Both the position numbers and the translations under genes were made by a program. Of a DNA stretch of 64,000 bases, positions 49,020 through 52,300 are shown one piece after another (position 1 is the stretch's first letter; every line of letters begins with the position of its first letter). Source of the DNA: an uncultured Micrococcaceae bacterium. Its GTDB lineage: Bacteria; Actinomycetota; Actinomycetes; Actinomycetales; Micrococcaceae. The notes under the pieces are model-generated. The model ran no database searches. It was not told the origin of the DNA and worked only from the letters and a program-made list of their open reading frames with translations. The DNA is taken from contig CANNAD010000001.1 in NCBI GenBank assembly GCA_947502645.1, positions 1,178,001-1,242,000 of the forward strand, read 5' to 3'.

Positions 49020-49475
49020 TTATTCGTGGTGGTAGGGGCGTCCGCTGGCGATCTCTTGGGCGCGATAGAGCTGTTCGATGACGATGAGGCGGACGAGTTG
49101 GTGGGGGAACACGAGTGGTGAGAGTGACCAGGTGAAGTCGGCTCGTTGGTGGACGGTGTCATCGACTCCGTACGCTCCGCCGATGATGAGCGTGATGTTC
49201 TTGGCGGAGTCGAGGGGTTGCTGGAGTGTCTGGGCGAGCTTGGGTGAGGTGATGGCTTTGCCGCGTTCGTCGAGCAGTATGAGGTAGTCGGTTCCGACTT
49301 TGGCGAGTAGTCTCTCTGATTCTTCTTTGCGGGCTGCGTCCCCTTCGCGTGAGGAGTGGGGGATGGGCTGCCAGCTGACGTCGAAGGGTTTTTTGAGGCG
49401 TTTTTCGTAGCGCGTTATGCCTTCTGATACCCATGACTCATGTTTTTTGCCGACGGTGAGGATGCGCAGTGCCAT
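49020..49475 (-). CDS. rlmH: 23S rRNA pseudouridine(1915)-N3 methyltransferase
   Basis: This 151-residue SPOUT methyltransferase modifies pseudouridine 1915 in helix 69 of 23S rRNA. ALRILTVGKKHESWVSEGITRYEKRL is the N-terminus. LILLDERGKAITSPKLAQTL and ITLIIGGAYGVDD, then LSPLVFPHQLVRLIVIEQLYRAQEIASGRPYHHE, form the knotted AdoMet site and the conserved C-terminus. It is full length. Copy B of the dispersed repeat begins right after its stop. Confidence 0.94.
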   Translation of the reverse strand: MALRILTVGKKHESWVSEGITRYEKRLKKPFDVSWQPIPHSSREGDAARKEESERLLAKVGTDYLILLDERGKAITSPKLAQTLQQPLDSAKNITLIIGGAYGVDDTVHQRADFTWSLSPLVFPHQLVRLIVIEQLYRAQEIASGRPYHHE

Positions 49476-49502: not shown

Positions 49503-50162
49503 TCAGTACGGTTCCGGCCACGCCATGTCTGCGATGATCCAGCCGCCATCGGTTGGTGTCAGGGTCATCTCCCACGTTGCACTTTCTGTGCCGTCTCCGG
49601 TGCTCGATACTTTTCTAGGCGCTTTGTAATATTTGTGTGGTTTTTGGACGAGTTTGGCTTCGCCGAATATGTTCCCGTGCTGATTGGTCCTCATGCTGGA
49701 GTATGTGAGCCGACTGTGGATCTCACCGCCTGTTGCCCAGTAATCATTCTTTGCCATGTATTCCGGAGTCTCCAAAAAGCGATTGCACATCTGGCAGCTA
49801 GTTTTTGCGAGCGGTGCGAGAACATCCGTGGACCGGGTGGCAATCGAGTAGTTCACTATGTCGAAGTAGTAGTCCACAAACGCCTTGAATCCTTCTTCGG
49901 TGTGTTCCTTCGCGACGGCTGGCATCTGTGGAATGGGGACATTCTCCGCGGGCCCTTCGGCGGAAGCGGCCTTGTACTTTGCCGAGGATGAGGCGGACGG
50001 TGTTGGCGTTGGTTCTGACACCGTGGTTTCGGTTTCAGGGCTTGCTGTCTGGGTTGTGCTGGTGGTTGTGGGTGTTGTTGCGCATCCGGTGAGCGAAAGG
50101 GCTGCGGCGAGGCAAATAGTTGTGAGGCGGTTGAGGTTGCGGGCATGGGGAGACTGGGGCAT
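49503..50162 (-). CDS. DUF6318 family lipoprotein (paralogue 1)
   Basis: This 219-residue exported lipoprotein has a lipobox (LSLTGCAT, about 22-29) and a Thr/Ser/Pro linker. The domain is ASAEGPAENVPIPQMPAVAKEHTEEGFKAFVDYYFDIVNYSIATRST (about 66-112), followed by KTSCQMCNRFLE with a CxxC and a C-terminal TPTDGGWIIADMAWPEPY. It matches the second lipoprotein at 51191-51826 along its length. DUF6318 is a Micrococcales lipoprotein family of unknown function. It lies 63 bp after the PKD-like gene and completes a three-gene secreted module. Confidence 0.85.
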   Translation of the reverse strand: MPQSPHARNLNRLTTICLAAALSLTGCATTPTTTSTTQTASPETETTVSEPTPTPSASSSAKYKAASAEGPAENVPIPQMPAVAKEHTEEGFKAFVDYYFDIVNYSIATRSTDVLAPLAKTSCQMCNRFLETPEYMAKNDYWATGGEIHSRLTYSSMRTNQHGNIFGEAKLVQKPHKYYKAPRKVSSTGDGTESATWEMTLTPTDGGWIIADMAWPEPY

Positions 50163-50225
50163 GACGTTCCTTGGTGGGGCGGCTGTGGTGGCCGATGTTT
50201 TGCTGGATGGTCGGGTGGGGTGTGG

Positions 50226-51194
50226 TTAGCAGCCCCAGTCTTCAGGGTTTTCGGCGCATGTTCCGTCGACTAGGCGGGATTCGGAGCGCCAGACGCTCAT
50301 GGTCACTGGTTCTGATGCCACTTGCGCTTGTCCTCGGATGGCTTGCCATGGTCCTCCTTCTACGGAGAATTCGCCTCGGAAGTATGTGGTGAGTTGGATG
50401 TTGTAGTCGCCTGTTTCTTGGTAGGCGTAGCTGGTGAAGGTGTGTTCGCCTAGGTCGGTTTCGTGAATGGCGATGCCGGCTTCTGGCATGGGGCCTCGTG
50501 TGGTGCCGTCGCCGTAGTTCCAGGTGTAGCTCACTGGCATGGCGCGAACTTCGACTGCTTTGTTGAGCAGAGTGATGTTGAATGTCTGGGTTTCTACTTC
50601 GGCGTAGAAGTTGTTGTGAGCTCGAATGAGTGTGTGTGGACGCGGTTGAACGCCAATATTTGCAGAGATGATGGTAAGTCTTTGGAAGTCCTCCAAAGTC
50701 ACTACAGGATCTTCATCTGGCCGGGGTAGCGCAGGGTCATGCGGTCCGACGCAGCGAGGGCTGCCTACTCTCTGAGCTGTTCTGGGATCTTGATCTGGCT
50801 TATTAAGAATGCGCCAGGTCTGAAGGAGCGACTCTCCGTCCTTACATGTTGGCGCGGAACCCAGACAAATTGGGTCAAGGTTGCTTTCTGCGTCGGAGCA
50901 GGCGATTTGGTCCCAGTAAATATAAAGTGGCGTCTCTGGATCACTCGGTTTTGGATCCGTCGGTGATCCCGGAGGGGTGCCTGGTAGTGGCAACGGGGCC
51001 GTTTCTATAGGAGGCTTCGCGTCAGGAGCGCAATGTCGGCCGCCCAGTTCCGTTGAGTCACCATCAAAATCGCCCTCAATTTTGCAGCGTGTTTCATCCG
51101 CGTTTGCGGCAGGCATGGCAAGGAATATGATAATGCAGGATAGCAGTACAAAGAAGGCAGTAAAGAATTTCTGGACTTTCCAAGGGGTAGTCAT
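50226..51194 (-). CDS. Secreted PKD-like domain protein
   Basis: This 322-residue exported protein has a signal peptide (FFTAFFVLLSCIIIFLAMPAANA, about 10-32). A Pro-rich linker with several Cys follows (CKIEGDF, RHCAPDAK, CSDAESNLDPICLG). The C-terminal part is a PKD-like domain with VSYTWNYGDGTTRG (about 220-233) and GEHTFTSYAYQETGDYNIQLTTYFRGEF. It ends WRSESRLVDGTCAENPEDWGC. PKD-like domains usually mediate extracellular protein or sugar contacts. It overlaps the upstream DUF6318 gene by 4 bp (ATGA). Base composition is visibly less GC-rich than the flanks. Confidence 0.82.
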   Translation of the reverse strand: MTTPWKVQKFFTAFFVLLSCIIIFLAMPAANADETRCKIEGDFDGDSTELGGRHCAPDAKPPIETAPLPLPGTPPGSPTDPKPSDPETPLYIYWDQIACSDAESNLDPICLGSAPTCKDGESLLQTWRILNKPDQDPRTAQRVGSPRCVGPHDPALPRPDEDPVVTLEDFQRLTIISANIGVQPRPHTLIRAHNNFYAEVETQTFNITLLNKAVEVRAMPVSYTWNYGDGTTRGPMPEAGIAIHETDLGEHTFTSYAYQETGDYNIQLTTYFRGEFSVEGGPWQAIRGQAQVASEPVTMSVWRSESRLVDGTCAENPEDWGC

Positions 51195-51826
51195 TTCGAC
51201 GATCCCATGTCTACCACGATCCAGCCATTTGCAGCTGCCTTAAAAAACATCTGCCACTTAATGCCCCAATTGGCATCGTTGGCCGAGCGATCCGTCTTGG
51301 AGTCATGGTTTATGAATGATTTCTGATTGAATTTGACCTGCCCGTATTTGTAACCCATCGGTCGCTCTGACATGTCAACATAAACAAGATCCAGATTTGT
51401 CTCACCACCGACTCGCCATGCCCCAGCGGCATGGTCGGTCTGAATGTCGTAGACAATTTGGCTGCAAGTGCCACAAAGCGGATTTGTGTACTGGCTAAGC
51501 AGATCTGTGGATTGTGATTCATACGAATAGTCGATCAGATCATAGTAGTACTCAATGAACGCCTTCAGGCCCTCCTCCGTGTGCTCTTTCGCGATCGCTG
51601 GCATCTCAGGGACAGGCACATTCTCGGCGGGTCCGTCAGCAGATGCCGGCTTGTAAGTCGGGGTTGGTGTCGGGGTGGCCGTTGCGGGGGCGGGTCCCGA
51701 GTCAGGCCCAGGACTGCTCATATCTGCCGAGGGAGATCCTGCGCATCCTGCTACTAGTAGCAGGGAGGAGAGGGCCAGTGCACTGGTCCGGAGCAGGCTG
51801 GAGTTCTTCAGGGGAAGGCGAGACAT
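51191..51826 (-). CDS. DUF6318 family lipoprotein (paralogue 2)
   Basis: This 211-residue exported lipoprotein has a lipobox (LLVAGCAG, about 22-29) and a Pro/Thr linker. It shares PASADGPAENVPVPEMPAIAKEHTEEGLKAFIEYYYDLIDYS with paralogue 1. A CxxC is present (NPLCGTCSQIVYD), and the C-terminus is KAAANGWIVVDMGSSK. It is the first gene of the module and overlaps the PKD-like gene by 4 bp. The two paralogues differ most in the last third, as would be expected if they bind different partners. Confidence 0.85.
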   Translation of the reverse strand: MSRLPLKNSSLLRTSALALSSLLLVAGCAGSPSADMSSPGPDSGPAPATATPTPTPTYKPASADGPAENVPVPEMPAIAKEHTEEGLKAFIEYYYDLIDYSYESQSTDLLSQYTNPLCGTCSQIVYDIQTDHAAGAWRVGGETNLDLVYVDMSERPMGYKYGQVKFNQKSFINHDSKTDRSANDANWGIKWQMFFKAAANGWIVVDMGSSK

Positions 51827-51932: not shown

Positions 51933-52300
51933 TCAGCCCGGCCGCGTACCGCTCTCCAGCCGATCAAAGACGGATTCGAGAATGGTGATCTTTTCCTCGG
52001 CGAAGAGCACTTCGGGACCGGCGGGTGCCAGACTATTGAATGGTGATTCGTAGAGCTGGCCGACTTCCATGACTCCGTTGCGGGTGAGGTGCTCAACGAT
52101 CAGGTTGATGAAGTTCAGTTGCGCAGCATTGAACGTGTTGCCGGTGATGAACTCGTCATGGATTCCCGTACGGCTTCGGGTTTCAACCCGACCAGTGATC
52201 GCACAAAGTATCCAAGTTCGCCCGATGATGCTCGCTCAAGGTCCTCGCGTGATCCAGCTCCGCTTTCCAGGAGGAGACCTTCGAGTCCAAGGAACCCAAC
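51933..52300 (-). pseudogene. Decayed HsdR (type I restriction R subunit) C-terminal fragment
   Basis: Two minus-strand frames together read as the C-terminal domain of a type I restriction R subunit / DEAD-box helicase (EcoEI_R_C type). One frame gives LESGAGSREDLERASSGELG then YFVRSLVGLKPEAVRESM (to about 52157). After a one-base shift the other frame gives FITGNTFNAAQLNFINLIVE, EHLTRNGVMEVGQLYESPFN and SLAPAGPEVLFAEEK, ending in TGA at 51933. The helicase and nuclease parts are missing. No hsdM or hsdS is nearby. This marks a lost restriction system. Confidence 0.72.

Follow-up and report, generated by a model that had tools for sequence, protein, structure and literature searches.

Pheromone-receptor loci such as comQXPA, with agr as a comparable locus, are built of adjacent overlapping genes whose variable segments adjoin across the genes, the other parts being conserved. 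In comQXPA, ComP has a variable N-terminal domain for which contact with ComX is predicted (PMC4008528). Toxin and immunity genes likewise move as joint cassettes so that the partners match (PMC3482391). Here we describe a locus of this layout in a 64,000-nucleotide stretch of DNA from an uncultured Micrococcaceae bacterium (hereafter the window), in which a DUF6318 lipoprotein gene is followed by the gene of an exported PKD-like protein, and one block spanning the junction of the two genes is variable and exchanged. Unlike comQXPA and agr, this locus has no histidine kinase, response regulator, peptide processing enzyme or small peptide gene, and its proteins are a predicted NTF2-like lipoprotein and a PKD protein. 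No linked kinase, regulator or processing enzyme recurs widely among the neighbours across families, where only DUF6318 and PKD do so.

In contact-dependent inhibition (CDI), Rhs and LXG systems, a variable cassette is recombined with constant gene parts together with the partner gene, immunity genes form strings, and NTF2-fold immunity families exist (PMC3482391). A variable cassette common to two adjacent genes and exchanged between constant parts is also what we found in DUF6318-PKD. Here, however, the variable parts are homologous and built on one scaffold, neither a known toxin domain nor delivery machinery is present, the constant part lies at the 3′ end of the second gene, and the candidate immunity protein would be an external lipoprotein. 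A further likeness, one of description, is to the TraA receptor and the SitA lipoprotein toxins of Myxococcus, polymorphic envelope proteins that sort kin (PMC5562445, PMC8546572); as described there, those act in Gram-negative outer-membrane exchange. The window genes are members of Pfam DUF6318 (PF19843) and PKD (PF00801) above the gathering cut-offs; DUF6318 carries no assigned function in Pfam and was not named in any paper found by our literature search, and we found no description of the block exchange. To our knowledge, outer-membrane-type exchange has not been reported in the window's order. DUF6318 and PKD, two families without a described joint role, form a single unit across a large actinobacterial order and bear the evolutionary marks of a specificity system.

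DUF6318 and PKD as the conserved unit

The window carries three genes for exported proteins on its minus strand, as a sequence-only reading of this DNA had proposed. Gene 1 (51191..51826) encodes a DUF6318 lipoprotein of 211 aa with the lipobox VAGC and the CxxC motif CGTC, gene 2 (50226..51194) an exported PKD-like protein of 322 aa, and gene 3 (49503..50162) a second DUF6318 lipoprotein of 219 aa with the lipobox LTGC and the motif CQMC, a diverged duplicate ~35% identical to gene 1. The start of gene 2 and the stop of gene 1 share a 4-bp ATGA overlap. Both DUF6318 genes hold the ENVPxPxMPAxAKEHTEEG core and match PF19843 (3e-27 for gene 1 and 7e-28 for gene 3, 96-98 bits vs a cut-off of 23.8), and gene 2 matches PF00801 (9e-6, 26 bits vs a cut-off of 23.5), confirming the earlier description of two paralogous lipoproteins with a Cys-containing PKD-like protein between them.

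What is conserved is the pair, DUF6318 followed by PKD, and not the triplet. The host genome has seven DUF6318 and five PKD loci, and all five PKD loci stand directly after a DUF6318 on the same strand. Across the order, sampled with one genome per species, DUF6318 lies directly upstream in 106 of the 118 PKD genes read and in 52 of 60 PKD genes from loci chosen by PKD alone. Overlaps dominate the spacing of the pair, the commonest being −4 bp (26/106), with gene starts taken as the first start codon, which distorts some overlaps and N-terminal identities. In at least one case (L054), an upstream gene missed by the DUF6318 profile is still a short lipoprotein. The sequence-only reading had made its proposal depend on the three genes occurring together; the pair does so in the proportions given above, and the triplet is a derived state.

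DUF6318 and PKD were each found in 34 of 39 related genomes, host included, and in 146 and at least 191, respectively, of 248 genomes of the order, where PKD counts were restricted to the best candidates and are lower bounds. Among 198 genomes sampled over the phylum, DUF6318 occurred in five (host included), all in the window's order, and the pair was not seen outside it. The distribution is wide and mostly single-copy, and the named members of the order found with the system include Arthrobacter, Jonesia and oral Actinomyces.

One variable block across the gene junction

When paralogs in one genome are compared, the outer ends of the pair are alike and the inner ends unlike. With the closest paralogs of 27 genomes and a crude split of each gene into halves, mean silent divergence was 0.42 and 0.69 in the N- and C-halves of DUF6318, and 0.59 and 0.30 in those of PKD. 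The PKD C-half diverged less than the N-half in 26/27 genomes and the DUF6318 N-half less than the C-half in 24/27, and when the genomes from which the pattern was first recognised are left out, the direction holds in 15 (DUF6318) and in all (PKD) of the remaining 18. Because silent sites show the mosaic, constraint on the protein sequence is insufficient to explain it. Gene conversion is separated from descent in G103 and G219, where silent divergence (pS) in the PKD C-half is 0.06-0.09 between paralogs within a genome vs 0.26-0.28 between orthologs, and nucleotide identity of the PKD 3′ half is 91-98% between paralogs vs 85-87% between syntenic orthologs. The DUF6318 3′ part and the PKD 5′ part make up one low-GC variable block, flanked by outer ends that are conserved and have been homogenised among the copies. 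In the window, the block (50827..51543, minus strand) runs from about codon 95 of gene 1 to its end and through about the first 122 codons of gene 2; its conserved 5′ flank (51544..51826, minus strand) encodes the signal peptide, linker and first helix of gene 1, and its conserved 3′ flank (50226..50826, minus strand) the PKD half of gene 2.

Replacement of the whole block is frequent at orthologous loci, that of the window included, whose flanks are 77-94% identical. L104 and L106 are 92-94% identical on both sides of ~0.9 kb that cannot be aligned, which takes in the entire DUF6318 gene and the beginning of PKD, and the same gap is found in L127/L125, L136/L127 and L096/L093, with outer flanks of 80-89%. 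Between the window and the syntenic locus of a same-genus genome (L048 of G001), rlmH and more than 4 kb beyond it align at 77-83%, and positions 50827 to 51543 are without any nucleotide alignment, both sides aligning: the DUF6318 5′ part (51544-51826) is 75% identical in nucleotides and the PKD 3′ half (50226-50826) 76%, the latter being also 77% identical to the paralog L012. A second syntenic locus of the two genomes (L009 vs L047) has the same gap, and there the G001 gene pair resembles L008, a copy outside the syntenic position, more than its positional ortholog.

Base composition follows the same boundaries. In 68 pairs, mean GC was 66.6, 55.9, 60.8 and 64.1% in DUF6318 N, DUF6318 C, PKD N and PKD C, vs 64.8% for the loci, and was lowest in the two variable segments. 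In the window, the three-gene feature has 55.0% GC vs 62.2% overall (z about −2.8), with only 1 of 244 windows of the same size as low, so the composition does differ from the flanks as previously noted. A horizontal island was considered and rejected, as the locus is syntenic in the same-genus relative; low GC is no mark of a recent island, because it sits in the variable segments of other lineages too. Phage or plasmid cargo was also rejected, with no phage record and three plasmid records, all non-mobilisable Arthrobacter replicons.

The pair could be a housekeeping envelope pair, with variable parts that are merely less constrained and gene conversion homogenising the more similar ends. 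The wide, mostly single-copy distribution would agree with this, as would the ratio of nonsynonymous to silent divergence (dN/dS), which is purifying overall (0.13-0.64), and gene conversion by itself favours similar stretches. No dN/dS above 1 was found, silent sites in the block being saturated. However, relaxed constraint neither raises silent divergence nor replaces a block inside orthologous flanks of 92-94% identity, and it does not explain why, across genomes, the low GC is restricted to the block, so we consider a housekeeping role very unlikely.

Recognition, antagonism or surface variation as possible roles

A structure model of gene 3 is confident from residue 61, with a block of predicted local distance difference test (pLDDT) values of 90-97 over residues 61-180, and shows long helices followed by a curved beta-sheet that, set against solved members, qualifies as NTF2-like. 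Its best solved matches are the ARC6/PARC6 intermembrane domain, Tim44, the VirB8-like PrgL and the CaMKII hub (E 2e-5 to 1e-3), and DUF6318 is predicted to have an NTF2-like fold, for gene 1 by homology to this model. The C-termini of the two lipoproteins do differ, as had been observed, but they are not disordered tails; they make up the beta-sheet half, diverged between the two, of a single predicted NTF2-like domain. Gene 2 encodes, in order, a signal peptide, a low-confidence linker, a four-Cys segment, a C-terminal PKD-like sandwich and a terminal Cys pair. The best fold matches of its PKD part are collagenase PKD domains (best E 1.2e-3), the PKD profile is matched by 20 of 20 relatives, and the N-half keeps one Cys-rich scaffold across much of the order. 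As a separate observation, the C-terminus of gene 2 (50226-50260) ends exactly in Cys, within C-x2-NP-x4-C, a terminus found in many PKD proteins of the window's family that could be a disulfide loop or processing site.

The two variable segments also covary. Across 129 loci, distances in DUF6318-C and PKD-N, with the constant parts removed, gave a partial correlation of 0.22 (permutation maximum 0.05), and that between DUF6318-N and PKD-N was −0.005. Distances in the two families as wholes also correlate (r 0.73), but species phylogeny confounds this value. Direct coupling analysis of 105 pairs gave top inter-protein scores above those of permuted pairings, but the permutations destroy phylogeny, and we gave this result no weight as evidence.

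We give an even chance to DUF6318 and the PKD-like protein being a cognate envelope pair whose specificity is kept diverse by recombination. A previously undescribed, order-wide kin-type or incompatibility recognition system, in which lipid-anchored NTF2-like and secreted PKD proteins form type-specific pairs and exchange of one junction-spanning DNA block both creates and spreads the types, is plausible at somewhat below that level, and some form of recognition or antagonism, taken together, is fairly probable. For a junction-spanning block that travels whole, as in comQXPA and in toxin/immunity cassettes, the simplest reading is that its two products have to match, and we infer that the DUF6318 sheet binds the PKD N-half. 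The lipid-anchored NTF2-like protein would use the variable surfaces to bind the secreted PKD protein at its N-terminal part, and a new block would have to arrive complete so that the partners still match. The constant PKD half may present the complex or bind the envelope, each kind of block would specify a recognition type, used to tell self from non-self or in antagonism between relatives, and extra DUF6318 copies might keep compatibility with other or former partners. The recognition or immunity system suggested from sequence alone gains support from the exchangeable block, which that reading had not seen, and we infer the function itself. If true, the pair would add an envelope recognition or antagonism system in Gram-positive actinobacteria, and the exchanged block predicts which residues should set specificity.

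Several points weigh against a cognate pair diversified by recombination. Block turnover is not constant, and the close species pairs L134/L135, L101/L099, L098/L100 and L133/L136 keep the same block; since same-block pairs stand beside replaced ones, a block tends either to be common to both loci or to be exchanged in its entirety. The PKD genes L041, L103, L117, L121, L123, L128 and L129, mostly of order family f7, have no recognisable upstream lipoprotein, and some DUF6318 genes have no PKD. Physical linkage of adjacent segments may alone be the source of the covariation, the coevolution set (105 pairs, effective number of sequences about 98) is too shallow to show contacts, and the structure models cover monomers only.

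An effector and immunity pair, with an antagonistic PKD N-terminal part that is exported, an anchored DUF6318 that protects the producer, and tandem copies as accumulated immunity genes, would account for the linked variable block, and Imm-NTF2 immunity proteins are known (PMC3482391). It would also fit the host genome, where two of five PKD genes and none of seven DUF6318 genes are broken, and the tendency of DUF6318 to outnumber PKD in multicopy genomes, with tandem duplication after PKD; this bias in copy number is confounded by the choice of genomes according to their DUF6318 count and by PKD counts that are minimum values. Yet the conserved scaffold of the PKD N-half shows no swap of unrelated toxin folds, no delivery system adjoins, and family f7 has PKD without recognisable DUF6318. 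The N-half matched no toxin family above cut-off in Pfam or NCBIfam and no toxin domain among solved structures. We regard an effector and immunity pair as unlikely.

Surface variation is a further candidate: phages or other binders would use the two exposed proteins as receptors, and shuffling of the block would serve to evade them. The predicted surface location, gene conversion among dispersed copies and a hypervariable middle within constant ends are in keeping with it, but escape alone needs no adjacent, jointly exchanged variable parts in two proteins. Neither protein appears in phage records or in known anti-phage defence families (no PADLOC match), which is not strong either way. Escape as the main function seems improbable, more so than an effector and immunity pair.

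Extra copies and neighbouring genes

By tree and synteny, the third gene is a lineage-specific tandem duplicate of DUF6318, and the triplet is derived and arose repeatedly, so we rejected it as a conserved unit. The additional DUF6318 genes of G009, G134, G223, G012 and the window branch in the tree with the DUF6318 of their own genome or genus, and gene 3 is absent from the syntenic locus of the same-genus relative. Four tandem DUF6318 genes stand at L042:7160-11312 and three at L043:7195-10019 in G003, several of them with lipoprotein signals of a twin-arginine-like (SRRS) type; that genome yielded only a single PKD.

The two broken PKD genes of the host stand beside intact DUF6318 genes, the one at L009 broken by a frameshift and the one at L010 by two in-frame stops. 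Both breaks could in principle be assembly errors, which is less likely for L010 because it has two in-frame stops in one gene. A solo DUF6318 without CxxC lies at the purN/corA locus of the host (L013:5018-5626, contig C3 of G000); its PKD was probably lost, because the syntenic L034 of G008 carries DUF6318-PKD-DUF6318. In G005, PKD C-terminal fragments with the same coordinates and scores stand at two contig starts (C5:19-267 and C17:19-267), as if a homogenised repeat broke the assembly.

Outside the system, the syntenic downstream neighbour is rlmH, a SPOUT methyltransferase gene (49020..49475, minus strand). Just upstream of gene 1 lies the remnant of a type I restriction HsdR gene (approximately 51940..52190, minus strand), whose ~77 codons match EcoEI_R_C at 2.9e-8, bearing out the decayed restriction gene noticed earlier. 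We rejected it as a partner of the pair and consider it incidental, as the same-genus relative has an unrelated SnoaL-like gene (L048:8027-8437) in that slot; the intergenic DNA preceding the pair is thus variable in its own right.
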